The translations under genes and the position numbers were made by a program. A stretch of 49,977 nucleotides of DNA, taken from the IMG/VR virus record IMGVR_UViG_3300020174_001238, positions 1 through 49,977 of that record; one strand, 5' to 3'. This document shows positions 5,770 to 19,849 of this stretch, one piece after another (within the stretch, counting starts at the first letter, position 1; the number at the start of each line of letters is the position of its first letter). This DNA comes from a virus. The notes under the pieces are model-generated. The model made no database searches, was not told where the DNA came from, and worked only from the letters and a program-made list of their open reading frames with translations.

Positions 5770-8700
5770 ATGGCCAGAATTAAAAAGTATTCACCTGAAC
5801 AAAATTTATCATCGTTTCAAACTTTAATAGTAGATGAAAATCCCAATTCGGATTATTTTAGAATTACCGAATTTAAAGATACATTTACTGGTGGTAAAAA
5901 TGGATTCCTAATAGAGGGTTCAGAATATCTAAAAGAATCTACTGAAATAAAAATTGAGATTTTAGATGTTAATGGAGAACCAATATATTATGAACCAGGT
6001 AATGGAATCCCAGAATACTATGAAGGTATATCAAAGTTAATAGCTGTTTATATCTATGAAGATACTCCAATCGGATTGGGTAAGATTACTATTTTGGGTG
6101 AACTAAAGGAGTATGATGATAATGGTGTAAAAAGACAAATTCCATCAGATTGGCGAGGTGCTTATAATGTTAAATGGGAAAGAACTTTTCAGATTAATAA
6201 AAATCTATCAAACGAAGATAGGGTAAGATTTTATCGTAGACCTAAGGTGGGTATTGATGAGATAGTTAAACCAATATTTAACAAAACCCCACAAACAATT
6301 ACTCAAACTGGGCAAGTAGATGGTTTACCTTTAATCCCAACCGAAAATACTCAACTATCTAATTTTTCTTTACCAACATCATATAGATTAAAAATCACAG
6401 ATGATACATATTGGACCGGTTCTGCGGTTGGTCAACAAATAGAATTTAGTGGACTAAACTATTCACCAACCATTACTGATATTGTCAACAAAGATGAAGT
6501 ATTAGTATCTCCACCATATTCTGAATCGGATTTAGTTAAACCATTTTCATCTCAAAATTATTCGGTATCATTTCCATATGTTGAGGGGGCAGTTGATTTA
6601 GCAACCGCTTTAACTGGTTCATTTGCTAAAATTAACATCACCAATATGAAAACATTTGTTGGTGATGCCGCTAGGGTTAAGGTGTTTAGAAAATCGGTAT
6701 CCCAATTAACTGATTATGAGTTCGTACAAGAAATACAATTAGAATCAAACGAATTGTTGAGAGATTTAGAAAGTGTTGAATCAACGGAAACTTTCTATGG
6801 TAATCTAAGTCAAAACTACATTAATAATTATTGGTTAACATCATCAAATGATTTAGTAACTACATTTAATCAAGATTTTTTATACAATTCTGTTGAACTT
6901 GATAATGGGGCATCTACTCCACAATATTTTTATACATCTCAATCATTGGGTATAACCAATGGTGTTGAATATAATTTATCGTTTAATGTTAGAAAAAGAA
7001 CAAACATCTCAGCCGATGATTATTTAAAAGTTTATCTAAGTGGTTCGTTTGGAAATACAACTGTAGCACAAACAATTACAAATATAGGTAGTTCGAATGA
7101 ATTATTACAAAAAACTTTAGTAAATGAAAATATAATTGCAGATAATATATCTGGTTCACAATTATATTTTGAAGTAAAAGGTAATGATTGGTTAATTAAT
7201 AATATTTCATTAAGAGCAGCAGAAGAAACTTCTTTTTCTCCCGATGAAATTACATTTATACAAAGTGTACCAAAAACATTAGCTGAAGAAACATTTGATT
7301 TTCGTTTTGAATTTTATGATATAAATAATAATTACATACCTGTATTAGTTGAAGAAACAAAAACATTCACAGGTGGTAACTTAAACTTATTTACAAAAGA
7401 ATTAATTCTTACACCAAATCAATTATATTTTGCATTTGATTCAGCATCGGCACCTGCAAATCCATTACCTCCATTAAACATTTTTATTGATGTTGAAAAA
7501 AGAGTAATAACTGGTTCGGTAACATTTACATCTGGTGCATATGATGAGTTTGGAAATTTATTATCATCATCACAATATAATGGTGGGGTATTTCCTGGTC
7601 TATTAACGGACAGAGATAAAGATATTGTAAAATTAAATGTATCTGATTATACTGGTTCAAGAGATGATATTACAGTTCAATATATTGAATATACTGGTGA
7701 GGTTGAGGGTGTAACCGATTCATTCGTAATCACTAGAGTTCAAGATGGTAAGGGTGGTGTAAACTTTGAGATTAGGCCTTACAGAGGTACAATTATCAAA
7801 AACAAAGATGATAAAGAATTAGAAATTCAAGCAATTCGTATTGATGGTATTAATGAAATTATTCTTAAAGATAATTTACCACAAACTGGATTTTCCGATG
7901 CAAAACTTAGAGTCCTTTCATCATCAATAGATGAAGTAACATTGGAAGAAAGTGGTTCTTATATACTTCTTTCAGAGGCATCATCTACTAAATTTATTAA
8001 AGGATTAAACGCTGGTTTAACTGGTAGTGGTGAAATTGATTATAACGCAAGATTTAATAGAGATTCTATTGATAATGAATTGACCGTATTCTTAATGGAT
8101 GGTGAAACTTCTCAATCAATTCTTACATCAATTATTCTTACCGATTTACAAGATGGTTTAGATAGTGGGTTTGTAACATTTGATGCAGATGTATTTACTA
8201 TTAATCCAAGAACACAAACTCAATTTACTCCGCAATTTAGTAGTGTAACGGGTTCTTTTTATAAGAGGGGTACTAAAGCAAATCCAGTATCAGCATCGAT
8301 TGAGATATTCCCATCGATGTCAATCAATAAAGATTTTGTTCCTGAATACTGGATGTATTTTGTATCTCATTCTAAAGATGAAAGTATTGAGGTAACGGCA
8401 TATGATGAGAATGGATTCTATTCACCACATGGTGAGTTGGGTTCATATATTGGGTTACCTGCTTCACAAAGCAAACAACTATTGGTAAACTTTACTTACA
8501 CAGAACCAGTAACTTCTGCATCGGTTCAAGTTGACCATATTTTCACCATTGTACCTGAAGGTAAGCCGGGTGATGAAACTGTATTGTTTGAAGTTAACCC
8601 TCAGACTGTAAATCTAAAATCGGATAGTAGAGGTAATGTCAATGATTTTAAACAATCTATAACTGATATTAGTTTAAGACAGGGTTCAAGACGATTAATA

Positions 8701-11700
8701 TTTACGGGTAGTGCAGAACCCGGTACGTTTACAATAGCATCCGAATCTATCAGTTCACAAAACATTGAAGTGGGATTACTACACTTAACTTCATCATTTG
8801 GTACTGATTATACGGCATCATTGATTGTAAGTGAATCATCAAACTTTACACAACTTAGTGGTAGTATTACATATCCATTAGAGATTAGACCTTACTTTAC
8901 ATCATCTGTTTACACACAAAGTTTTACTCAAAATTTTACTAAAATATTAGATGGACCTCCTCCAATAGAACTAAACATAGTTCCTCAATCTGTAACTTTA
9001 ATTGCTAATGAAGTAGAATTTGTAGGTGATTATTCCAACGCTACAACAACAATTACGGTAAAAGAGGGTTCTGATAATTTAATAAACACCAGTAGTGGTG
9101 CACCTGGTACATTTACTTTAGAATCTATTAATACAACAAACATAACTTCAAATTTAGTTTCGTTGGAAGGTGGAATATCTGCTAGTGTTGAATTTAGTGA
9201 ATTTGAATATCCATATGTATCTGCTAGTGTTACATATAATATTAATGTATTTCCATTTTCATTAGGACCTGGTCATGAATATTCATCTTCTGTTTTTGAA
9301 AGAACTCAAAATTTTGTTAAAAGTATTACACCTCCAAACGCTAGAAGTGTTGAGTTAACAGCAACATCAGAAGTAGTTCACTTTGATGGTGATGGACAGG
9401 TAACATCTCCATTAGGTGCAATTACATTAACTGCTGAAGCTTACAATACAACAGGTTCTGTTTATTACGGATTCTTTAGAGATAGTTATGTGTGGCAACC
9501 ATATTCACAAACAAATACAGTAACTGTTGGTTCTGGTGATGCAACTGAAGCTGGTGAAACTGTAAGCTGGGAGGTACGAATTAGAGATGGTGGTTCAACG
9601 GCTAATGTAGTAGCTACTGATGCAATTACTATTACTGGTGTACAAGATGGAGCATCAAATTATAATGTACAATTGGATAACCCATCTGTAACTCTTACAT
9701 CTGATGTAGATGGTACAACTCACTTTACTGGTAGTGGTGCTGTAATCAGAGCCGTAAAAGGTGTAACACCGCTAACTCACGTAACTTCATATTCACCATC
9801 CGACTATGTTTATGATGAGCAGGGTGTATTTATTGGTAACTTAGGACAATATTCTGCATCGATAGAATCTAAAAGTCCTTATTTAAATCAAACGGGAATA
9901 TTCGCTGGAAACCCTGCAACTTTACCTGAAATACCAAATGGTGGTTGGACTTCACCATTTGATAATCCAACTGGAACAATTGTTTACAAAGTTGATATTG
10001 AAAATGGTAGAGCAACTTATTTCTTATCACAATCATTTGCAGTAACATTCGAAGGAGCAACTGGTCCTGGTGTTGTTGTAAGAGGTGAGTGGAATGCGAA
10101 TGTTCCATATCTGTTTACTGGAACAAGAAGAGATGCGGTTGTTCAAGAGATTAGTGGTGATACACACTATTGGGCAACAACTGAAGCACTTATAAACAAA
10201 CCAGCATATACTGATGGAAGTGCACCATATACCGCACAACCAACATTACCACCTGGCCCACCATATGAAGAAGGTTATGAAGATGCAACAACTGGGTGGG
10301 AATACTTAGGACAAGAAGATTTCTTCGTAGCTGCTAAGATTGCAATTTTTGAAGAATCATTTGTAGAAAACACAATAAATGTTGGTAAACCATCAACTGA
10401 TTATAGTGTTAATCCACAAATAGCAATTTATGGTGGTGATAGTGAACCTTATATAGCCATCGGACAAGGAACTCAAGGATATGGACAGCAAGGTATATTT
10501 TTGGGTGTAACTGAAGATGGTGGACCTAATGGAACACAAGGAACATCTGGATTATTCTCAATAGAAAATGATACTGGTGATAGATATCTAAGATGGGATG
10601 GTTATGATTTAGAAATAGCAGGTTCGATACAAATCAAAGGAGGTTCTGCCGCAACCACTTCAAGCGTTGATGCTATCAACAACGCAACAGGTGGATTTAT
10701 AAACCCATCGGAATATCAATTCGGACCAGGTAGTAGTCCTGATTTCTTCGAATTGGGAGAATTACCAGCAACTCCATCAGTTCCAGGTCTATATTTAGGT
10801 TCTGATAATTTAGGTTATCACGATGGAACTGATTGGAACGCATTTTTAGATAATAATGGTAACTTTTATTTAGGAGGAGAAGAAGGTGGTTCATTATCAT
10901 TCCAACAATCATCGGGTAATTTAAAAGTTTCTGGTATCGTATCAGCATCGGCTGGTATATTTGGTGGATTGGTAATTGATAATACTGGTGTATTCTTCCC
11001 ATCAACATATGATGTGGGTAATCAATACTTTGGTGAAAGTGTTGTAACTCAATCTTTATCTTATATTGATTTTACGGATGCTATAACAAATCAAGGTGGA
11101 GGTAGTAGAGCAATTATTGAAAGAAATACATCAATTTCTGATGTTGGTGATAATGCATATAAACAAATGACGAGAACCGCAGACCCATTTGGTAGTGGTT
11201 CTGCAGTTATGACAGCATTTGGTCTTGTAACCACAACAAACTTAGTAACAGGTTCAGCATCTGGTTCTTTCTTTGGTTCAGATAATGCACACTTTAAAGT
11301 AACTCCAAACTTATACGCACTTAATTCATCATATGAAATTGATTTTTGGTGGACTGGTTCATTTAATTTAGATGCTGGTGGTGCCAATGCCTCTAACTTA
11401 GTTTGGCAAGCTGGTACAAATCAAATTATAACATCCGATTCATCTTGGGAAGATGCTATCGGTTCACCTTATATACCAGATGAGTGGTTTCATGGTAGCC
11501 TTGATAGTGGAGCTGACCCAAGAATGAGTGCGTACATTCATGCATATGATGTACCTGTTTTAGGTATTGGTAATATTGTAGATTTGTATATTCCAATTGT
11601 TCAATATCTAAACTCAACAACTTTACGTTCAACGGAAGATAATAACTATGGTAGTGATATAGAACTACATAACGCAGGAAGCGTAACTTTATATTTAATT

Positions 11701-14178
11701 GATAGAATGTATGCAGGTGGTGGTGGAGAAGGTGTAAATACAATTAATGCTGGTTCACTTACTGCTGGTAGAGTTGAACCAAGAAGTATAACTGGAGAAG
11801 CATTAAGAATATCAACATCTGGTTCATTGGATGGACAAACTCTCCCATTCTTATCTATGGGACAGCTTACTGCATCATATGATGCGCAAGGATTATTTTT
11901 CGGATTCCCATCTGGTTCAACTGTTCCAAGAATTTCTATGAGAGGACCTGATGGTAGTTTCTTTAGATATGATGGTAGTGTAGTACAAATGAGTTCGGAT
12001 ATTATTGGTGGGGCAATTGAAGGTTCGGATATTGTTGGAGGTACAATCAGCGTACCAGCTACTGGAGTAAGTGCATCATTTAGTGTAAATGCTCAGGGAG
12101 CATTATCAGCTTCCGATGCAAACATTCAGGGTATTATCAATGCTAATTCTGGTAGAATTGGTTCTTGGGTAATTGATGAAGATACTCAGGCATTAAGAGA
12201 TGATAACTCTGAAATCGTATTTGAACCTAATATTCCTGAAATACAATTATTTGATAGTGCAGCTGCTAAGAAAGTAATTATTTCTCCATCGGATACCTTA
12301 ACTGGTACGGGTGGAACTACAACTACTGTAGAATGGATAACAGCAGCACCAGACCCCAGTGATGTTAGATACGCTGGTACTGGAAATTCAAGCGGTATAA
12401 TATCACAAGCATCCAGTGCTACAACAACACTTGTTCAATTTGGTAGTTACATATCTGGTGGATTAAGTGATTCTGATGATGAGGGAACAGATGATGGATT
12501 GTTTGGTGTAACTGCTGGTGATTTAGAAGTAACGATAAATGTACCAGAAATGTATTTGATGAAACCAGAAGGTAGTTCGGTATCACATACTACATCTTAT
12601 CCAAATTATAATCCAACTTATAATTCTCAACTACATGGAGGAAGTTCTTTTCCGAAATATGCCTATGCATATCTTTATTTAGAATGTGTAGATACCGATA
12701 CCTCTAATAGTGTTTTGGGTAGAACATTAATAGCAGCCGTTAATTCAAGAAGTGATTATACTGCTGGTAATTATTACGTTGGTGATGTTAATGACGGTGG
12801 TGGTGGGGGAACATCTTTCCCAGGTATAAGTTCAGTAACTGGTGATACTGAAATTACATTAGCATCTGGAAGAAAAATGAGAGCAGACCAGATATTTAGT
12901 GGTGAACCTTTAAAAGTTTGGAGTTGGAACGATAAAATAGATGGTGTAGATGAAATAAATAAATTTGATTCATTTAAATTAGAAAAAGTAAAAAAACGAA
13001 AAGTAGATAAAGTTTATAAAGTAGTTGTTGGTGATAAGGAAGTGAGAGTTTCCGATACTCATGGGTTTTGGTTAGATAATAATGAAGAAGTAACCGCAGT
13101 TGATATTATACCAAATGAAACTAAAGTTTACATAGTAGATGGTGATACTATAAAACTACAAACAGTTGATTCAGTTGAAGAGATTGAAACTGATGAGTGG
13201 GTATATACATTTGAAGTACCGGGTGTTCATAATTACATATCAAATGATATTTTATCACACAACCCATCAACTTGGACTTATACATCTGCTACTACTGTAA
13301 GTGGATATGTTGGTTCTCAATCAGCAATAAGCAATCAAACTAAAACAATTAATATATCTCGAGCGGCAACTAATGCAGCATTCAGATATTCTATACGTTT
13401 AGCAGCTGCTTCAGGTAGAGCTATTAATGTAGATTCATCTGGTAACAGTTTAAATAGTTACAAAACACATACTGTTAGGTATGATGCTCTAAGAGCAGCA
13501 GGTCCAATACCAGCTGGATATTTGGGTAGAGCGGGTGGATATCAACCTGATTTATTATTAGATACTAATGTTAGTTTTGCGTTAGCATCTAACTTTGTTG
13601 AAATTAAAGCAGGTGGTATTCAGGTTGTATCAGACCCAGATACATTTGTTAAAATACCTAGACAAGCTACTGGGGGTGGAACAATTTTAGAAGCAAAAGG
13701 TGGAGAATCTATTTTCGAAGCTACGGGAACTGGAATTGGCCAGACTGCAATGACTGTAAAAGGTAATCTTATGCCAGAAAATGGTGATGATTTTGATTTC
13801 GGTAGTGCTTCGGATATGTGGAAAAATATTTACGGCCATAACCTCAATGGTGTAGATATTGAAAACTTAGCTGTATCATTAGATGATGGTCCCGGTGCAA
13901 CTACCACAGATACTAACTCAGTTAATGATAACTATGATAGTTATGTAAAATTGCCTGGTGGTGTTATCTTACAATGGGGACATATTTATGATACATCATC
14001 ACCAAGATATGTTGCATTCCCTACCCAATTCCCAAATGTTATTCATTCGGTAGTTTGTTCTACAAATAGAAATTCTGGTGGTAGTAACGGGTATAATCAT
14101 GTTTACAACTACGATAGAAATGGTGTAGAATTAATTTTAGATGGTAATTATGGATTTTGGATTGCAATCGGACATTAA
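5770..14178 (+). CDS. Giant tail fibre / adhesin with Ig-like repeats and embedded Hint domain
   Basis: This 2802-aa Ser/Thr/Gly-rich virion protein has no signal peptide or membrane segment. After an N-terminal attachment-like region (about 1-170) come tandem beta-rich Ig-like units. Several end in hinge motifs: VQDGKGG (about 657), LQDGLDSG (about 794), EGKPGD (about 931), LDGPPP (about 1060) and VQDGAS (about 1290). The units at about 940-1060 and 1065-1185 are visibly duplicated (PGTFTIxS / PGTFTLES). A GATGPG turn lies near 1430. Residues 2355-2498 form an intein-like Hint domain. The C-terminus (KLPGGVILQWG to WIAIGH) resembles the gp53-like tip domain of phage receptor-binding proteins. 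A tail-assembly-chaperone-like gene follows 11 nt downstream, as is common for fibres. The family-level function is host adsorption; the receptor is unknown. Confidence 0.8.
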   Translation: MARIKKYSPEQNLSSFQTLIVDENPNSDYFRITEFKDTFTGGKNGFLIEGSEYLKESTEIKIEILDVNGEPIYYEPGNGIPEYYEGISKLIAVYIYEDTPIGLGKITILGELKEYDDNGVKRQIPSDWRGAYNVKWERTFQINKNLSNEDRVRFYRRPKVGIDEIVKPIFNKTPQTITQTGQVDGLPLIPTENTQLSNFSLPTSYRLKITDDTYWTGSAVGQQIEFSGLNYSPTITDIVNKDEVLVSPPYSESDLVKPFSSQNYSVSFPYVEGAVDLATALTGSFAKINITNMKTFVGDAARVKVFRKSVSQLTDYEFVQEIQLESNELLRDLESVESTETFYGNLSQNYINNYWLTSSNDLVTTFNQDFLYNSVELDNGASTPQYFYTSQSLGITNGVEYNLSFNVRKRTNISADDYLKVYLSGSFGNTTVAQTITNIGSSNELLQKTLVNENIIADNISGSQLYFEVKGNDWLINNISLRAAEETSFSPDEITFIQSVPKTLAEETFDFRFEFYDINNNYIPVLVEETKTFTGGNLNLFTKELILTPNQLYFAFDSASAPANPLPPLNIFIDVEKRVITGSVTFTSGAYDEFGNLLSSSQYNGGVFPGLLTDRDKDIVKLNVSDYTGSRDDITVQYIEYTGEVEGVTDSFVITRVQDGKGGVNFEIRPYRGTIIKNKDDKELEIQAIRIDGINEIILKDNLPQTGFSDAKLRVLSSSIDEVTLEESGSYILLSEASSTKFIKGLNAGLTGSGEIDYNARFNRDSIDNELTVFLMDGETSQSILTSIILTDLQDGLDSGFVTFDADVFTINPRTQTQFTPQFSSVTGSFYKRGTKANPVSASIEIFPSMSINKDFVPEYWMYFVSHSKDESIEVTAYDENGFYSPHGELGSYIGLPASQSKQLLVNFTYTEPVTSASVQVDHIFTIVPEGKPGDETVLFEVNPQTVNLKSDSRGNVNDFKQSITDISLRQGSRRLIFTGSAEPGTFTIASESISSQNIEVGLLHLTSSFGTDYTASLIVSESSNFTQLSGSITYPLEIRPYFTSSVYTQSFTQNFTKILDGPPPIELNIVPQSVTLIANEVEFVGDYSNATTTITVKEGSDNLINTSSGAPGTFTLESINTTNITSNLVSLEGGISASVEFSEFEYPYVSASVTYNINVFPFSLGPGHEYSSSVFERTQNFVKSITPPNARSVELTATSEVVHFDGDGQVTSPLGAITLTAEAYNTTGSVYYGFFRDSYVWQPYSQTNTVTVGSGDATEAGETVSWEVRIRDGGSTANVVATDAITITGVQDGASNYNVQLDNPSVTLTSDVDGTTHFTGSGAVIRAVKGVTPLTHVTSYSPSDYVYDEQGVFIGNLGQYSASIESKSPYLNQTGIFAGNPATLPEIPNGGWTSPFDNPTGTIVYKVDIENGRATYFLSQSFAVTFEGATGPGVVVRGEWNANVPYLFTGTRRDAVVQEISGDTHYWATTEALINKPAYTDGSAPYTAQPTLPPGPPYEEGYEDATTGWEYLGQEDFFVAAKIAIFEESFVENTINVGKPSTDYSVNPQIAIYGGDSEPYIAIGQGTQGYGQQGIFLGVTEDGGPNGTQGTSGLFSIENDTGDRYLRWDGYDLEIAGSIQIKGGSAATTSSVDAINNATGGFINPSEYQFGPGSSPDFFELGELPATPSVPGLYLGSDNLGYHDGTDWNAFLDNNGNFYLGGEEGGSLSFQQSSGNLKVSGIVSASAGIFGGLVIDNTGVFFPSTYDVGNQYFGESVVTQSLSYIDFTDAITNQGGGSRAIIERNTSISDVGDNAYKQMTRTADPFGSGSAVMTAFGLVTTTNLVTGSASGSFFGSDNAHFKVTPNLYALNSSYEIDFWWTGSFNLDAGGANASNLVWQAGTNQIITSDSSWEDAIGSPYIPDEWFHGSLDSGADPRMSAYIHAYDVPVLGIGNIVDLYIPIVQYLNSTTLRSTEDNNYGSDIELHNAGSVTLYLIDRMYAGGGGEGVNTINAGSLTAGRVEPRSITGEALRISTSGSLDGQTLPFLSMGQLTASYDAQGLFFGFPSGSTVPRISMRGPDGSFFRYDGSVVQMSSDIIGGAIEGSDIVGGTISVPATGVSASFSVNAQGALSASDANIQGIINANSGRIGSWVIDEDTQALRDDNSEIVFEPNIPEIQLFDSAAAKKVIISPSDTLTGTGGTTTTVEWITAAPDPSDVRYAGTGNSSGIISQASSATTTLVQFGSYISGGLSDSDDEGTDDGLFGVTAGDLEVTINVPEMYLMKPEGSSVSHTTSYPNYNPTYNSQLHGGSSFPKYAYAYLYLECVDTDTSNSVLGRTLIAAVNSRSDYTAGNYYVGDVNDGGGGGTSFPGISSVTGDTEITLASGRKMRADQIFSGEPLKVWSWNDKIDGVDEINKFDSFKLEKVKKRKVDKVYKVVVGDKEVRVSDTHGFWLDNNEEVTAVDIIPNETKVYIVDGDTIKLQTVDSVEEIETDEWVYTFEVPGVHNYISNDILSHNPSTWTYTSATTVSGYVGSQSAISNQTKTINISRAATNAAFRYSIRLAAASGRAINVDSSGNSLNSYKTHTVRYDALRAAGPIPAGYLGRAGGYQPDLLLDTNVSFALASNFVEIKAGGIQVVSDPDTFVKIPRQATGGGTILEAKGGESIFEATGTGIGQTAMTVKGNLMPENGDDFDFGSASDMWKNIYGHNLNGVDIENLAVSLDDGPGATTTDTNSVNDNYDSYVKLPGGVILQWGHIYDTSSPRYVAFPTQFPNVIHSVVCSTNRNSGGSNGYNHVYNYDRNGVELILDGNYGFWIAIGH
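12832..13263 (+). other. Hint (intein / bacterial-intein-like) domain inside the fibre protein
   Basis: Residues S2355 to N2498 (144 aa) show the Hint blocks. The N-terminal block reads SVTGDTEITLASGR, with Ser in place of the usual Cys1. The B block has a TxxH-like SDTHGFWL. The F block (VYTFEVPGVHNYI) leads to the terminal HN (H2497, N2498). The next residue is Pro2499, then Ser2500, so a standard +1 Cys/Ser/Thr nucleophile is missing. There is no room for a homing endonuclease. This composition fits bacterial-intein-like domains, which may cleave rather than splice. The Hint assignment is strong; the activity is inferred. Confidence 0.85.
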
Positions 14179-14189
14179 AAAAATAAATT

Positions 14190-14579
14190 ATGAGTGATAT
14201 ACGATACTTTGGACATTATGATGAAAATGGGGATTATAAAGCATTTTTCCCAACGGATATACATCCCGATACAGGTTCTATGGACACTCCCAACATAGAG
14301 TTAACAAAAGAACAATGGATTGAGGCAAGGCAAACTAGATGTAGAGTAATCGATGGTATTCACACAGTTGTACCATTAACTACCGAAGAACAAAACGAAA
14401 GAGATTTACAAAATATTAGAAGAGAAAGAAATGAACTTTTGGATAAATCGGATTGGGTTGTACTTCCTCATTCTCCTATTACTGGTTCTAAATTAGATGA
14501 TTGGTTACAATATCGACAATATTTAAGAGATGTAACTTCTCAAACTCCTCCATATACTTTACCAACTCAACCGGAATAA
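14190..14579 (+). CDS. Tail fibre assembly chaperone-like protein
   Basis: The protein is 129 aa. The C-terminal half RRERNELLDKSDWVVLPHSP followed by WLQYRQYLRDVT matches the pattern RNxLLxxSDW...W..YRQxLRD. That pattern is typical of phage tail assembly chaperones (Phage_tail_APC-type) encoded next to fibre genes. The N-terminal part is beta-rich and aromatic (RYFGHYDENGDYKAFF) and could be the client-binding region. It starts 11 nt after the giant fibre gene stop, so it is almost certainly co-transcribed and acts on that fibre. It is not expected in the mature virion, although some relatives remain attached. Confidence 0.7.
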   Translation: MSDIRYFGHYDENGDYKAFFPTDIHPDTGSMDTPNIELTKEQWIEARQTRCRVIDGIHTVVPLTTEEQNERDLQNIRRERNELLDKSDWVVLPHSPITGSKLDDWLQYRQYLRDVTSQTPPYTLPTQPE

Positions 14580-14628: not shown

Positions 14629-14901
14629 ATGCAAAACAAAACAGAACAATTGGATTTAAATTTAGTTGCTAAACTAAAAAAAATTCAAGAAGAACAAAAT
14701 AATATAGTAATTTCATTAGGACAAATCACAGTACAAAAAAGACAATTATCAAAAAGTATTGAAGATTTGGAAAATAGGGAATTAACATTAGGTGAAAGTT
14801 TGGATAAATCAATTGAAATTCTAAATAAAGAATTAGCTGAAATTGATGGAAAATATCCAAATGGACAAATTGATTTAGAAAAAGGTACAATTACTTACTA
14901 A
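14629..14901 (+). CDS. Small coiled-coil protein, paralogue A
   Basis: This 90-aa, charged, almost entirely helical protein consists of heptad-like coiled coil over about residues 10-72, followed by the C-terminal motif YPNGQIDLEKGTITY. The gene at 19481 encodes a longer relative ending the same way (YPRGQINLKEGTLTY). I do not recognise a named family. The size and pattern suggest a structural or chaperone-like protein that oligomerises through the helix. The two copies bracket the glycosylation cassette. A candidate late element sits immediately upstream, and a Bacteroidota-type promoter begins 5 nt after its stop codon, so it is probably transcribed separately from the glycosyltransferases. 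Confidence 0.75.
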   Translation: MQNKTEQLDLNLVAKLKKIQEEQNNIVISLGQITVQKRQLSKSIEDLENRELTLGESLDKSIEILNKELAEIDGKYPNGQIDLEKGTITY

Positions 14902-14973: not shown

Positions 14974-17157
14974 ATGCCTAAAAAGAAAAAACTGTTATAC
15001 ATTGCACCCCATCTTTCTACTGGGGGCATGCCACAATATCTTCTCAAACAAATCCAAACATTTGTAAATGATTTTGAAATAGTTGTTGTTGAATATAATG
15101 ACCATAGTGGTGGTGTATTTGTAGTTCAAAAAAATCAAATAAATGATTTAGTGAAACTATACTCTTTATATGAAAATAAAAAAGAGTTATTAGAGATTAT
15201 AGATTCCGAAAATCCTGATATAATTCATTTTCACGAAATACCACATCATTTTGTAGATACATCTTTATTAGATATTATTTTTGATAATGAAAAAAGAAAT
15301 TATAATATTGTAGTAACCACACATGGTTCACTAACAAATCCAGACGAAATAAGATATCATCCAGATAGATATGTTTTGGTATCTGAGTGGAGTAGAAGAA
15401 AATTTGAACATTTAGGTATTGAAACTGATATTTGGGATTACCCAATTGAAGATTTTAAGTATGATAAAAAATCTGCAAAAAAAGAATTAGGATTTGAATC
15501 CGATTGGAAGCATGTAGTGATGATTGGTTTATTTACTGAGGGTAAAAATCAAGGTGAAATATTTGGGGTAGCTAGACAAATGGAAAAGTACAAAATTAAA
15601 TTTCACTTTGTTGGAAACCAAGCTATGAACTTCGAAAATTATTGGAAACCTTTAATGGATGTTAAACCCGATAATTGTATTATTTGGGGAGAACGAAATG
15701 ATGTAGATAAATTTTACAAAGCATCGGATATGTTTTATTTTAGTTCTAAATTAGAATTAAATCCTTTATCGGTTAAAGAAGCATTATCATATGGATTACC
15801 ATCTATATTCAGAAAACTACATACTTATTTGGATACATATGATGATAATCCACTGGTTACTTATATCGATGATGATTTAAATAATACTAAACAAATTATA
15901 TTAGAAAAGTTACAACCTGATTTTAATGAAGTACCTGGTTGGTTTTCATATTCTGATTTATACGATAAGGTGATTAGGGATTTGCCCGATAATTCTAATA
16001 TAGTTGAGGTTGGTAGTTGGTTAGGTAAATCTACCAATCATATGGCCAACAAAATAAAATATTCAAAAAAGAACTTTAATTTTACAACAGTTGATACGTT
16101 TAAGGGTACAATTGATGAAACTTTACATCAGAGTATTGTAAATAGTTTTGGGGGAGATGTATTTTATGAATTTATAGATAACACAATTTTATCAAACAAC
16201 TATAACAACTTTGAAATTATAAAAGATACATCCGAAAATGCGTCATCCCAATTTCAAAATAACTCATTAGATTTTGTTTTTTTGGATGCGGGCCACACAT
16301 ATGATGATGTGATTAAAGATATAAAATATTGGTATAAAAAAGTTAAGCCAGGTGGAATTATTGCTGGTGATGATTATGTTAAGGAATTTATGGGAGTAGT
16401 TGATGCTGTGAGAGAATCGTTTTATTATCAGTTTGAACAAATAAACAAATTTCAATGGGCTAGAAGAAAACCTCGTATTCAAATCAAACACCTAATGACT
16501 AGGCCAAATGATTTAAGAGAAATGGTATCACAAGCTTCACTTAAACAATTGGAAAGGTATGGAATGGTTTATGAACCAATTGTAAATAAACCTTATACTG
16601 ATTTTGCACCAAAGGAATTTTGTAGAAGGCCTGAACATCTAAGTAAAGATAACAAACCGGGTGAGTTATATCCTGGTGCTGGTTTGGGTTGGATAACTGG
16701 GGGGCATTATGGGTGCTATATGGCTCATAGAGGTGCTTTGGAAACAATGGATAATGATAACTTTGATTATACTCTTATCTTCGAAGCTGATGCATTTATT
16801 TATACTGGTTTAGAGGAGTTTGTAGATATTGTACATAAAGCTTGTTTCATATCAGAAAGAGATGATGTTACCTACATATCTTTCGCTGATAATCCATCTA
16901 GAAGTAAAGAAAAAATAGATGAGTTGTTTTCCAAAACGGCACATAATCAAGATTTAGCACATGCTTATTTAATACCAAATCGTAAAAAACAATGGTGGTT
17001 AGATAGAATCAAAGATTGTAAGTGGGATGTTGCTGATTTGTGGTATAACCACGTATTCTACGAACATCCAGAAAAAAGATATACAACCAATAAAGTATAT
17101 TCAAAGCAAGCAGAAGGATACTCTTTATTAGATTTAAAAAATAAAACTTGGTTATAA
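14974..17157 (+). CDS. Three-domain glycosyltransferase (GT4-like) - methyltransferase - GT25-like fusion
   Basis: The protein is 727 aa. Residues 1 to about 320 look like a GT-B (GT4-type) glycosyltransferase, opening with LYIAPHLSTGGMPQY and carrying SKLELNPLSVKEALSYGLP near the donor site. Residues about 330-490 form a class I SAM-dependent methyltransferase: the glycine-rich loop IVEVGSWLGKS (343-353), FLDAGHTYDD (about 436-445) and KPGGIIAGDDY. Residues about 510-727 resemble GT25/LPS-type transferases, with GCYMAHRGALE (580-590) and the acidic motif FEADAF (603-608). It is the first gene of the cassette and overlaps the heptosyltransferase by one base (TAATG). It probably builds or caps a methylated glycan on a virion or surface acceptor. 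Donor and acceptor cannot be read from sequence. Confidence 0.8.
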   Translation: MPKKKKLLYIAPHLSTGGMPQYLLKQIQTFVNDFEIVVVEYNDHSGGVFVVQKNQINDLVKLYSLYENKKELLEIIDSENPDIIHFHEIPHHFVDTSLLDIIFDNEKRNYNIVVTTHGSLTNPDEIRYHPDRYVLVSEWSRRKFEHLGIETDIWDYPIEDFKYDKKSAKKELGFESDWKHVVMIGLFTEGKNQGEIFGVARQMEKYKIKFHFVGNQAMNFENYWKPLMDVKPDNCIIWGERNDVDKFYKASDMFYFSSKLELNPLSVKEALSYGLPSIFRKLHTYLDTYDDNPLVTYIDDDLNNTKQIILEKLQPDFNEVPGWFSYSDLYDKVIRDLPDNSNIVEVGSWLGKSTNHMANKIKYSKKNFNFTTVDTFKGTIDETLHQSIVNSFGGDVFYEFIDNTILSNNYNNFEIIKDTSENASSQFQNNSLDFVFLDAGHTYDDVIKDIKYWYKKVKPGGIIAGDDYVKEFMGVVDAVRESFYYQFEQINKFQWARRKPRIQIKHLMTRPNDLREMVSQASLKQLERYGMVYEPIVNKPYTDFAPKEFCRRPEHLSKDNKPGELYPGAGLGWITGGHYGCYMAHRGALETMDNDNFDYTLIFEADAFIYTGLEEFVDIVHKACFISERDDVTYISFADNPSRSKEKIDELFSKTAHNQDLAHAYLIPNRKKQWWLDRIKDCKWDVADLWYNHVFYEHPEKRYTTNKVYSKQAEGYSLLDLKNKTWL

Positions 17158-18299
17158 TGATTTACGATAATTTAATAAAATTAGAGGACAATATTAGAGA
17201 AGTTAGAAATACTTTTATTTTTAATTTTGTTAGAGGTGCTTATATCGAAGTAAAGGGTTCCCAACCAAAAAACTATAAAGTACAATTTATAGACCCAAAA
17301 ACAAATTATATTCATTTCCAAACAGATATCTCAAATGGGCAGTGGGCAAAATGTAGTATTGAATTTTTTGTTAATTGGAATGTTAAAATTTGGGAAGGTG
17401 ATATTTTGGTAGAAGATTATCAATATAATGCTGAAAATAAAAGAGTTTATATAGCATTGGATTCGAAGGCATTGGGTGATACTTTGGCTTGGGTTCCATA
17501 TGTTGAGGAGTTTGGTAAACTACATAATTGTAAAATGATAACTTCCACATTTCACAATCATATGTTTGAAAAGCAATACCCAAACATAGAATTTGTTGAA
17601 CCGGGTACAAATGTACATAATTTATATGCTATGTATTCATTAGGGTTATTTTATAATGAAGATAATACATACAAAATGTTAAAACATCCATCTAATTTTT
17701 TAAATGAACCAATGCAGAAAATGGCAACTGATATATTGGGTATGGATTTTAAGGAAGTTAAACCAAAATTAGTGGATAAACAAATTAAAAAAGATAATAA
17801 ACTAATCACTATTGCAATTCATGGAACCGCACAAACAAAGTATTGGAATAATCCAAATGGTTGGCAAGATGTTGTAGATTGGTTAAATGATAAAGGATAC
17901 AAAGTAAAATTATTATCCAGAGAAAACGATGGATATATGGGTAACGAGCATCCTAACGGAATCATTAAACACCCAGAAGGAACATTAGAATCAGTTATGG
18001 ATGAGATGAGAAAATCTAAAGCCTTTATTGGTATTGGTAGTGGATTGAGTTGGTTAAGTTGGGCATTGGGAACTAAGACTGTATTGATTAGTGGATTCTC
18101 ATACGATTGGGCAGAAATGGAAGATTGTATTAGAATTGGAACACCTGAAGGAAAATGTAGTGGTTGTTTCAATAGATTGAGATTAGATGCTGGTGATTGG
18201 AATTGGTGTCCTGACCACAAAGAAACTAAAAGACAGTTTGAGTGTACTAAATCCATTACATCAGAAATGGTAATCAAAGAATTGGAAAAGTTTTTATGA
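17157..18299 (+). CDS. TibC/BAHT-type protein O-heptosyltransferase
   Basis: The protein is 380 aa from ATG 17157, which overlaps the previous stop as TAATG; a TTG at 17148 is possible but less likely. The N-terminal beta-rich part precedes a GT9-like heptosyltransferase core. It resembles autotransporter strand-loop-strand O-heptosyltransferases (TibC, Aah), for example KALGDTLAWVPYVEEF, VEPGTNVHNLYAMYSLGLF and GIGSGLSWLSWALG. The C-terminus carries four cysteines (C334-x2-C337, C351, C363) placed as in the iron-binding finger of TibC. Known members transfer heptose from ADP-heptose to serines of repetitive beta-helical adhesins in the cytoplasm, acting as dodecamers. The next two genes encode HldE-like activities, which supports an ADP-heptose-type donor. 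The acceptor is unknown; the phage's own fibres are plausible. Confidence 0.85.
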   Translation: MIYDNLIKLEDNIREVRNTFIFNFVRGAYIEVKGSQPKNYKVQFIDPKTNYIHFQTDISNGQWAKCSIEFFVNWNVKIWEGDILVEDYQYNAENKRVYIALDSKALGDTLAWVPYVEEFGKLHNCKMITSTFHNHMFEKQYPNIEFVEPGTNVHNLYAMYSLGLFYNEDNTYKMLKHPSNFLNEPMQKMATDILGMDFKEVKPKLVDKQIKKDNKLITIAIHGTAQTKYWNNPNGWQDVVDWLNDKGYKVKLLSRENDGYMGNEHPNGIIKHPEGTLESVMDEMRKSKAFIGIGSGLSWLSWALGTKTVLISGFSYDWAEMEDCIRIGTPEGKCSGCFNRLRLDAGDWNWCPDHKETKRQFECTKSITSEMVIKELEKFL

Positions 18300-18685
18300 A
18301 AAAAGTTTGGATAAATGGATGTTTTGATGTTTTACATCATGCTCATTTTAAAATGATTGAATTTGCATCTACTTTTGGTGATTTATTAGTAATTGGTATT
18401 GATTCTGATAAACGAGTAAAAGAGTTAAAAGGAGAAGATAGACCTTTTCATACGCAAGAAGAGAGAAAGTATAACTTAGAAAGAATTAAAGGAGTAAAAA
18501 AAGTAATAATATTTGATTCATCTCATGCATTGGAAGAAATGATAAAATCATATGAACCTGATGTATTTGTAATTGGTTCTGATTATAAAAATAAACCAAT
18601 AGTTGGTGAACAATATGCAAAATCAATTGTTTACTTTAATCGAATGGAAAATTTTAGTACTACAAAGATATTAAGTAATGGGTAG
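18296..18685 (+). CDS. HldE C-domain-like sugar-phosphate nucleotidyltransferase (RfaE domain II type)
   Basis: The protein is 129 aa. The signature NGCFDVLHHAHF (HxGH-like, H14 and H17, with Ala for Gly), the segment DRPFHTQEER and the ending STTKIL fit the RfaE2/HldE adenylyltransferase and TagD cytidylyltransferase superfamily. VFVIGSDYKNKPIVGEQYA matches the VxxGxDY...IVG pattern of the heptose enzymes. The expected reaction is heptose-1-phosphate plus ATP giving ADP-heptose. A glycerol-3-phosphate cytidylyltransferase role is the main alternative. It overlaps both neighbours (ATGA with the heptosyltransferase, 8 nt with the kinase), so the three are tightly coupled. Confidence 0.82.
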   Translation: MKKVWINGCFDVLHHAHFKMIEFASTFGDLLVIGIDSDKRVKELKGEDRPFHTQEERKYNLERIKGVKKVIIFDSSHALEEMIKSYEPDVFVIGSDYKNKPIVGEQYAKSIVYFNRMENFSTTKILSNG

Positions 18686-19430
18686 AATATTATTAATAGG
18701 AGAACAATGTGATGATATCTTTATTTATGGAGATACACCAAGACTTTCACCCGAAGGACCTGCTCCTGTATTTATTCCGAAAAGAGAAGTTTACAATGGT
18801 GGGATGGGAATGAATGTAATGGGTAATTTAATGGCATTGGGGGTTGATGTAGATTTTGAACATCAACAATCTCCAATTACAAAGACAAGGCACATTCACG
18901 AACCATCGAATACCTTACTTCTAAGAATTGATGAGGAATTAAATATTGATAATATAGGTGATAGATTACCTAAGTTAGATTTTTGGGAATATCCAATGGT
19001 TGTAGTTTCCGATTACAACAAAGGATTCCTAACCGAAGAAGATATTGCATATATCGGATTCAAGCACCCAAATGTAATTTGTGATACAAAGAAAAAGTTG
19101 GGTGAATGGTGTAAAGATTTGCGATTCATAAAATTAAATCGTTCAGAATTTGAAAATAATAAAGAATTTATTGAAGAAAACGATTGGATTTTAGAAAAGT
19201 TAATAATTACATTAGATAAAGATGGGTGTATGTACAAAGGTACATCATATCCAACTGAACAAGTAGAGATTATGGATATCTCAGGAGCAGGTGATACTTT
19301 TGTAGCAGGATTTGTGAAAGAGTTCTTAGATTCCGAAGATATTCCAAAATCAATACAATTTGGAAATCGTTGTTCAGCACAAGTTGTACAAAAACGAGGT
19401 GTAACAACAATAGATTACGAAAATTTATAA
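18678..19430 (+). CDS. HldE N-domain-like heptose 7-phosphate kinase (PfkB family)
   Basis: This 250-aa ribokinase-fold protein resembles RfaE domain I. Visible features are LSPEGPAPVF and GGMGMNV in the substrate region, VVVSDYNKGFLTEED and the PfkB signature DISGAGDTF with catalytic D206. By family, it would phosphorylate D-glycero-beta-D-manno-heptose 7-phosphate at C1. The usual HldE kinase domain is about 310-320 aa, so this is a compact version. In most bacteria kinase and nucleotidyltransferase are fused; here they are separate and in reversed order. GmhA, GmhB and HldD are not in the window and would have to come from the host or elsewhere in the phage. Confidence 0.82.
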   Translation: MGRILLIGEQCDDIFIYGDTPRLSPEGPAPVFIPKREVYNGGMGMNVMGNLMALGVDVDFEHQQSPITKTRHIHEPSNTLLLRIDEELNIDNIGDRLPKLDFWEYPMVVVSDYNKGFLTEEDIAYIGFKHPNVICDTKKKLGEWCKDLRFIKLNRSEFENNKEFIEENDWILEKLIITLDKDGCMYKGTSYPTEQVEIMDISGAGDTFVAGFVKEFLDSEDIPKSIQFGNRCSAQVVQKRGVTTIDYENL

Positions 19431-19480: not shown

Positions 19481-19849
19481 ATGGCAAAAGAAAGCAAACA
19501 ACAAATTGAATTACTTACTATTGATTTAGGTGAGAGTACAATCGGTTCTATCAAAGAAAAAAATGCAAAGATTAACGATATCGTTAATGCATTTGGTCAA
19601 ATCTATCTTCGTAAAAAAGAATTAAACGAAGAGTTAGAAAAGTTAGAAACAACTTTACAACAAGCTGAAGCTGATTTTAAAGAATCAAACGATGCTTTAA
19701 GAGAAGAATTAAGTGCATTGGATAAAGAGTATCCAAGAGGACAGATAAACCTTAAAGAAGGTACACTAACATACAACCCAGCTATCAAAGAGCAGATGAA
19801 TCAGCAAAACGCAAATTTAACATCTGATAATATAGAAGTGGTAAAGTAA
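19481..19849 (+). CDS. Small coiled-coil protein, paralogue B
   Basis: This 122-aa protein has a long coiled coil (about residues 22-85, rich in KELNEELEKLE-type heptads) followed by YPRGQINLKEGTLTYNP and a polar tail. The same C-terminal motif closes the 90-aa protein at 14629. The two are also similar in overall design, so I call them diverged paralogues. Function is unknown. It is preceded by its own late-type element and followed by another one, so it appears to be a single-gene transcription unit. Abundant structural or fibre-accessory proteins are often arranged this way, but that is only a guess. Confidence 0.78.
   Translation: MAKESKQQIELLTIDLGESTIGSIKEKNAKINDIVNAFGQIYLRKKELNEELEKLETTLQQAEADFKESNDALREELSALDKEYPRGQINLKEGTLTYNPAIKEQMNQQNANLTSDNIEVVK

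Follow-up and report, generated by a model that had tools for sequence, protein, structure and literature searches.

Why should a virus carry an enzyme of the kind that puts heptose on bacterial adhesins, together with genes resembling those for sugar-donor synthesis? The question is raised by the virus record IMGVR_UViG_3300020174_001238, analysed here as the whole linear record of 49,977 bases (the window), in which overlapping genes on the + strand encode a 380-amino-acid (aa) relative of the protein O-heptosyltransferase TibC, an HldE-like nucleotidyltransferase (NT) and an HldE-like kinase. We consider it probable, on balance, that the products of this cassette O-glycosylate fibre proteins of the phage, collagen-like fibres being the best acceptor candidates. 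The TibC-type transferase would act in the cytoplasm, adding heptose to serines of long, repetitive fibre proteins either ahead of virion assembly or while it proceeds. The protein encoded immediately upstream, which combines GT4, methyltransferase and GT25-like domains, would probably extend or methylate that sugar, and the most promising acceptors would be Ser/Thr-rich collagen-like fibres (Gly-Ser-Ser or Gly-Thr-Ser) whose genes lie elsewhere in the genomes of these phages. Donor, acceptor and sequence of events, as well as the presence of the product on virions, are what we infer from the evidence below. The readings weighed along the way overlap with this one, and their probabilities need not sum to one.

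Judged by sequence comparison and structural modelling, the TibC-type assignment of the 380-aa protein is solid. The protein matches TIGR04414 with 272 bits (E 7e-81; cut-off 200), whereas the lipopolysaccharide (LPS) heptosyltransferase models heptsyl_trn_I and RfaC reach 27 and 24 bits. The general Pfam GT9 model exceeds its cut-off (31.1 versus 22), as expected because the TibC fold is kin to GT9; PF21129 alone stays under its own (20.1 versus 27). TibC (PDB 4rap, E 2.4e-48) is the only close solved relative by sequence. An AlphaFold (AF2) model of the protein has a pLDDT of 92, and its residues 17–380 superpose on TibC with a Z of 40.7 and an rmsd of 2.2 over 354 residues, N-terminal barrel included; WaaC and other GT9 enzymes come next at about Z 19. 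Identity as an LPS heptosyltransferase (GT9: WaaC, WaaF) is ruled out by these model scores and by the fold. The catalytic Asp108, and Thr224, Lys228 and Trp299, correspond to TibC Asp110, Thr226, Lys230 and Trp305, and Cys334, Cys337, Cys351 and Cys363 align with the TibC iron ligands Cys339, Cys342, Cys358 and Cys370 as a predicted iron finger. The sequence-only reading had proposed a TibC/Aah-like transferase with an iron finger at just these four cysteines, and both the alignment and the superposition bear it out.

The phage enzymes nevertheless differ from TibC at positions that matter for its chemistry. The functional residues of TibC were taken from the available part of PMC4358343, which describes Thr226, Lys230 and Trp305 as contacting the beta-phosphate and the heptose, Arg286 as touching adenine N1 (its Ala mutant being inactive or nearly so) and Pro300 as setting the choice between D,D- and L,D-heptose. 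Across 104 dereplicated phage rows, Asp110, Lys230, Trp305 and all four cysteines (TibC numbering) are invariant, and position 226 is Thr in 97 and Ser in 7. The Arg286 position is Val280 in the window and Arg in only 8 of the 104 phage rows (not Arg in 96), compared with 24 of 31 rows from a bacterial collection; the Pro300 position is Gly in 85 of the 104. In the window enzyme the Phe-Val pair of the TibC thumb reads Tyr-Met, the thumb is three residues shorter and its hairpin strands are absent from the AlphaFold monomer model. The changes at Arg286 and Pro300 and the shorter thumb therefore define a divergent phage subfamily, to which the window enzyme belongs. Its mode of action is expected to resemble that of TibC, whereas neither the nucleotide it prefers nor its assembly into a dodecameric ring of the TibC kind can be taken for granted.

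What would such an enzyme modify? Long proteins of the GSSGTSG type, noticed in the neighbourhoods, prompted a test for collagen-like triplets. Runs of at least eight Gly-X-Y triplets occur in 43 of 88 transferase loci (loci of at least 10 kb), 25 of them with at least 25% Ser, and in 1 of 60 kinase-without-transferase loci, none Ser-rich (these control loci were not dereplicated). When whole records were scanned for four Gly-[ST]-[ST] triplets, 8 of 11 were positive, including copies of one phage (G001/G002, G004/G005); the window fragment and cyanophages P-SSM2 and S-SM2 had none. We then chose further contigs among those of about 35 kb or more. The pattern is present in 32 of 40 with a transferase (31 of 39 after merging the near-identical pair L157/L158), one of which, L029, has the cluster of L036 in the 11-record set. 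It is present in 1 of 39 kinase contigs, which include the identical kinase pair L224/L226 and none of which has a transferase by TIGR04414. Fisher's test gives p 1.9e-13, or 6e-13 after merging, treating the contigs as independent, which they are not. A reversed-pattern control returned 0 in all four whole-contig triplet scans.

The association is also seen from the side of the fibres. When a stricter Ser/Thr triplet pattern was used to pick out contigs (50 of the 80 listed), 16 of the 50 carried TIGR04414, 14 of them over the cut-off, and among those of at least 60 kb the proportion was 10 of 15. Among 13 contigs related to the window through their terminase, and so picked regardless of the transferase, the one contig with the pattern, G138 (136 kb), also has the transferase, while G139 (120 kb) and G140 (68 kb) have neither. 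The 252-kb sister contig G001 encodes the identical transferase, and its triplets lie at 135.4–143.3 kb, about 48 kb downstream of that gene, in two open reading frames (ORFs) of at least 1663 and at least 2639 aa, whose triplet runs contain 340 and 187 Ser. Pfam recognises both as collagen repeats (the first with PF01391 at 386.8 bits). A collagen-like fibre of the relative L044 carries a Peptidase_S74 chaperone at its C-terminal end, a feature shared with tail fibres. According to the available text of PMC4358343, TibC glycosylated Ser but left Thr unmodified in a fragment of its autotransporter, which makes Ser-rich triplet fibres plausible as acceptors. The link between transferase and collagen-like fibre remains an association.

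Besides the loss of Arg286, several findings weigh against this interpretation. The window itself has no run of at least eight Gly-X-Y triplets, its tail fibre included, and in its clade 9 of 37 loci have runs near the transferase, which are short and in one case Ser-rich. The contigs compared are interrelated, and the controls come from a different phage pool, so that ancestry is not removed. Of the triplet-pattern contigs, 34 of 50 lack a transferase, though many of these are short fragments; among the shorter stretches from the triplet scan it is present in just 5 of 79. Conversely, G146 has a transferase and no triplet match, but is a 29-kb fragment. The kinase-bearing contig G076 (that of L237) has 159 Ser/Thr triplet matches at 125–184 kb and no TIGR04414 match. 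The TIGR04415 target repeat is over its cut-off in none of 9 records, a negative that is weak in fragments. As for the donor, 64 of 96 dereplicated viral transferases have neither NT nor kinase in the flank examined. No SIS_2 (GmhA-type) match was found in 10 records, the sister contig included, nor any TIGR01656 match over cut-off in the same number (one weak match, E 0.005, in G008). Phages without NT and kinase would have to use a donor from the host. G076 is a natural exception that may hold another transferase.

The strongest competitor makes the adjacent fibre, or else a protein of the host surface, the acceptor, and ascribes the collagen link to shared ancestry or habitat. In close relatives that reach far enough upstream the transferase does sit behind a fibre gene, and the fibres of some of them contain short Gly-X-Y linkers. 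We regard this explanation as unlikely, since no target repeat above cut-off was found in the 9 records (one weak TIGR04415 match, E 0.0117, lies in a 2481-aa frame of G008) and since the Ser/Thr triplet link recurs in widely separated parts of the phage family, whichever way the search is run. A repetitive beta-helical acceptor of autotransporter type, which the sequence-only reading mentioned as the bacterial target of BAHT enzymes, is thus not supported in these records. Its broader suggestion that a virion protein is modified fares better: a virion fibre is a likely acceptor, the adjacent tail fibre a possible one, and the better candidates are the Ser-rich collagen-like fibres encoded elsewhere in the genome.

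Table 1. Genes of the cassette and its surroundings in the window, with the matches on which each label is based.
Feature	Position	Strand	Basis
Nucleotide-sugar dehydrogenase-like gene, 272 aa	4306..5124	+	TIGR03026 196.5 bits (cut-off 189.8); PHROG UDP-glucose dehydrogenase
Tail fibre, 2802 aa, gp53-like C-terminus	5770..14178	+	PF21882 46 bits
Tail fibre assembly chaperone	14190..14579	+	PF16778 48 bits; PHROG tail fibre assembly
Small protein left of cassette, paralogue of 19481-19849	14629..14901	+	phmmer cross-matches
Three-domain protein, 727 aa: GT4-type glycosyltransferase, Methyltransf_24, C-terminal GT25-like (below cut-off)	14974..17157	+	Pfam
TibC/Aah-type glycosyltransferase, phage subfamily, 380 aa	17157..18299	+	TIGR04414, PDB 4rap, AlphaFold model
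HldE adenylyltransferase-like NT, 129 aa, HxGH motif = HHAH	18296..18685	+	TIGR02199 (below cut-off), PHROG 7878, PDB profile
Compact HldE-kinase-like PfkB kinase, 250 aa, GAGD retained	18678..19430	+	TIGR02198 (below cut-off), PHROG 8133 249 bits
Small protein right of cassette, paralogue of 14629-14901	19481..19849	+	phmmer cross-matches

The transferase, NT and kinase ORFs are all present as listed in Table 1, the first from an ATG at 17157. The stop of the three-domain gene overlaps this start by 1 base, so that consecutive genes overlap by 1, 4 and 8 bases and translational coupling across them is likely. The cassette had been described as three overlapping genes; the 4- and 8-base overlaps are real, but the set comprises four genes, the three-domain gene having gone uncounted. 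Its position between a fibre and tail fibre assembly gene on one side and terminase, portal and capsid genes on the other is as originally described. To the right of the second small protein lie a large cytidyltransferase-like gene, the terminase, the portal and the major head protein, and the + strand also carries primase and SbcC-like genes. A scan for promoters and terminators did no better on the window than on shuffles. The dehydrogenase-like protein is a second compact sugar enzyme, its 272 aa facing a model of length 413, the first part of which it apparently lacks. Residues 2361–2498 of the tail fibre resemble an Intein/Hint domain (PF14890, 31.1 bits, under the cut-off of 35.8), and its C-terminal junction, by eye, reads HN followed by Pro rather than Cys, Ser or Thr.

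A terminase scan returned at least 586 relatives of the window, and the 13 examined are contigs of at least 19.5 kb among the best 80. The transferase is found in two of them (G138 and G146), flanked by both small proteins as in the window. The other 11 show neither transferase nor small proteins in the part examined, which is most of each contig, and five of these can be expected to cover the slot, since the fibre gene and the cytidyltransferase-like gene are both visible in them. With the unit present in two relatives and not seen in these five, the arrangement small protein–GT/MT (the three-domain gene)–transferase–(NT–kinase)–small protein appears to be a module that can be exchanged at a site next to the fibre gene. 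Among the 13, the paralogous small proteins were seen only with the cassette; they may mark exchange borders or be small partners.

How widespread is the transferase? A tblastn search of 50,697 phage records (INPHARED) found it in four, one of which, Microcystis phage Mel-JY01, has it at the C-terminal end of a protein of 1226 aa and also has Ser/Thr triplets. Scans of IMG/VR brought up 135 relatives in one case and, with a profile, at least 589 stretches with the transferase; the best-scoring 80 loci were retained per scan, so that the sample leans toward relatives of the window. By these sequence matches the enzyme is widespread in uncultured phages. Among the 96 dereplicated viral transferases, NT and kinase lie within about 1 kb downstream in 25, the NT alone accompanies 5 (one about 10 kb off and on the other strand) and the kinase alone 2. 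Distant phages encode the transferase as a fusion with GT4, GT2 or methyltransferase domains, and in close relatives (L003–L026) the gene before it is a GT4/methyltransferase gene in every locus long enough to include that position. Together these fusions and neighbours suggest a larger, possibly methylated glycan.

An alternative is that the cassette remodels the host surface, altering LPS or other host glycans and thereby blocking superinfection. Such a function has been proposed for pelagimyophages, in which the available text of PMC7029224 describes rfaE and glycosyltransferases and a modification of the host O-chain. It would also suit the finding that 57 of 72 dereplicated phage kinases have no transferase in the examined flank, from which it follows that such kinase and NT genes also serve other ends. 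For the window cassette we think it rather improbable: the transferase matches TibC and not the LPS GT9 enzymes by model, residues and fold, the cassette occupies a fibre-adjacent slot, and the Ser/Thr triplets that co-occur with the transferase are missing from 38 of 39 kinase control contigs.

If fibre heptosylation is the more probable function, the next question is whether the two partner enzymes could supply the donor. The NT scores 103 bits against TIGR02199 (HldE adenylyltransferase), its best NCBIfam model, with a cut-off of 181.5, and 71 bits with the glycerol-3-phosphate cytidylyltransferase model. The kinase scores 101.8 bits against TIGR02198 (HldE kinase), also its best NCBIfam model, with a cut-off of 345, and is about 65 aa shorter than the bacterial kinase domain model. 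The claim of HldE-type enzymes is thus upheld as to the leading models and weakened by both scores falling below the curated cut-offs, and "HldE-like" is the right label. The phage kinase family (about 250 aa) retains GAGD and an N-terminal SPE-x-P-x-PV stretch in alignment, and its profile finds heptose-7-phosphate kinase 4e84 first in the PDB (E 8.6e-24), followed by ribokinase (7.5e-13).

The NT profile finds ethanolamine-phosphate cytidylyltransferase (1e-31), glycerol-3-phosphate cytidylyltransferase (2e-23) and 5x9q (3e-22), a putative cytidylyltransferase, which we take to be HldC of B. pseudomallei. The HxGH motif reads HHAH in the window NT, L006 and L014 (3 of 14 alignment rows). A published promiscuity motif, (F/L)XXGRSTT (given in the available text of PMC11573728), is not present in the window NT, where the aligned stretch reads RMENFSTT. 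The likeness to cytidylyltransferases and the missing motif therefore leave open, at the level of sequence, whether the co-substrate is ATP or CTP. ADP-heptose as the donor is unproven, because most phage copies have lost the adenine-contacting Arg286. That the kinase and NT make some other activated sugar or alcohol, the TibC-like enzyme having changed its donor, would fit the loss of Arg286 and the Pro300-to-Gly change in most phage copies, the below-cut-off HldE scores and an NT profile no closer to 5x9q than to ethanolamine-phosphate and glycerol-3-phosphate cytidylyltransferases, but is the least probable of the alternatives, since the kinase profile is clearly led by a heptose-7-phosphate kinase, HldE models lead in NCBIfam for both window proteins and TibC Thr226, Lys230 and Trp305 are kept.

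The early steps of heptose synthesis appear to lie outside the phage. In line with the sequence-only reading, which saw no GmhA, GmhB or HldD in the window, none of the 24 window ORFs scanned against NCBIfam matches any of the three. The sister contig has neither a SIS_2 nor a TIGR01656 match, and HldD was searched for in the window only. A full precursor pathway in the phage is rejected on the SIS_2 and TIGR01656 results for the 10 records, and with no GmhA- or GmhB-type match the early steps must be supplied by the host. By analogy with TibC, HldD need not be present and should be dispensable, because the TibC donor is ADP-D,D-heptose in the available text of PMC4358343. A relative of a P-SSM2 protein annotated "phosphoheptose isomerase" is found in 1 of 8 records (G009) and not in the sister contig. 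Cyanophage proteins at L083 8722-9066 and at L084 13981-14292 and 15622-15951 bear the same annotation, in two records without a SIS_2 match; by eye they look like HAD-type phosphatases, which would make them candidates for the missing phosphatase step. A cyanobacterial host was considered too and set aside, no Photo_RC match being found in 8 records.

The cassette is also maintained by selection. Median pairwise ratios of nonsynonymous to synonymous divergence (dN/dS) are 0.21 for the transferase (162 pairs), 0.12 for the NT (115) and 0.17 for the kinase (202), calculated for a chosen set of 21 sequences in which some contigs appear twice under different locus numbers, so that the pairs are not independent; pairs with dS outside 0.15–1.2 were dropped. 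Purifying selection acts on the cassette, and its composition is not chance, because gene order is kept in relatives and the medians are low. Identity between the window and L183 is 97.6% for the kinase, 57.5% for the NT and 67.4% for the transferase, so the three genes have different histories; the L183 mosaic points to single-gene swaps inside the cassette.

In a tree of 136 rows, TibC and the Acetobacteraceae-type bacterial enzymes lie apart from a largely phage group that contains the phage enzymes. This group also takes in ten rows from the bacterial collection, several of which are metagenome bins that may contain phage DNA; one of the ten, Methylobacter luteus L086, lies on a 4.5-Mb scaffold. 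The TibC-type gene of Methylobacter genomes (L086 10001-11095, L089 10001-11095) is 51% identical to the phage one, and the L086 neighbours look chromosomal by eye. The NT+kinase label needs nine changes on the tree, at least five by strong branches. Seven rows received it through the kinase scan, and the NT was afterwards found in all seven. The coupling of the transferase to HldE-like kinase and NT proposed for the window is accordingly seen in two separate parts of the tree.

A more specific version of fibre glycosylation can be put forward tentatively, as a possibility short of probable. The phage TibC-type subfamily would hyper-heptosylate serines of Gly-Ser-Ser/Gly-Thr-Ser fibres with a nucleoside diphosphate (NDP)-heptose that is perhaps not ADP-heptose, producing a sugar-coated fibre in which heptose is the first residue of a longer, methylated glycan. 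A non-ADP donor is possible because the adenine contact is gone and the partner NT is cytidylyltransferase-like.

The phage enzymes share with TibC/Aah of E. coli (BAHT, TIGR04414; PDB 4rap/4rb4) the fold, the N-terminal barrel region, the catalytic Asp, the Thr/Lys/Trp donor contacts and the four-Cys iron finger. They differ in being phage-encoded, in having mostly lost Arg286, in the shorter thumb of the window enzyme, in fusions to other transferases in distant phages, in the pairing with NT and kinase in some lineages and in having no TIGR04415 target above cut-off in the 9 records. Cyanophage NT/kinase clusters (P-SSM2, S-SM2, S-CAM1, S-CAM3 and others) have the same compact HldE-like kinase and NT, but no TibC-type gene by tblastn of INPHARED, and the Ser/Thr triplet pattern is missing from P-SSM2 and S-SM2. 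Virus-encoded enzymes of NDP-heptose synthesis, with ADP-heptose as their product, have been published (Tang et al. 2024, as described in the available parts of PMC11573728 and PMC11461863). They share with the window the virus-encoded heptose kinase and nucleotidyltransferase activities, predicted here from sequence, whereas the HldE-like genes of the cassette are linked to a protein-type heptosyltransferase.

Mimivirus L230, a bifunctional lysyl hydroxylase/glycosyltransferase that hydroxylates collagen-like protein and puts glucose on hydroxylysine in the accessible account of PMC9614988, is likewise a viral glycosyltransferase for collagen-like proteins, a role only predicted for the cassette, which differs in that heptose on Ser is expected and in phages. 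For a mycobacteriophage, capsid glycosylation has been inferred from two putative glycosyltransferases (available text of PMC11256854). We found no report of a phage TibC-type enzyme or of its link to collagen-like fibres in a literature search that mostly did not reach subscription papers and preprints. The view that no characterised phage system resembles this one therefore stands for the transferase in the literature found and falls for heptose synthesis, where viral enzymes have been published. The phage subfamily, with the substrate that it probably has, extends a known kind of system.

The role of heptose-synthesis enzymes in viruses has been called unsolved (available text of PMC11573728), and a phage operon pairing such genes with a TibC-type transferase, together with the strong co-occurrence of this transferase with Ser-rich collagen-like fibres, offers a direct and testable answer, namely glycosylation of virion fibres. 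The loss of Arg286 likewise makes a rule of nucleotide choice in the TibC-type family testable. If the proposal is true, it gives a role to the heptose enzymes of at least some viruses, and many natural enzymes would be at hand for making heptosylated repeat proteins. Protein heptosylation would then be a common trait among aquatic phages instead of one peculiar to bacterial adhesins.

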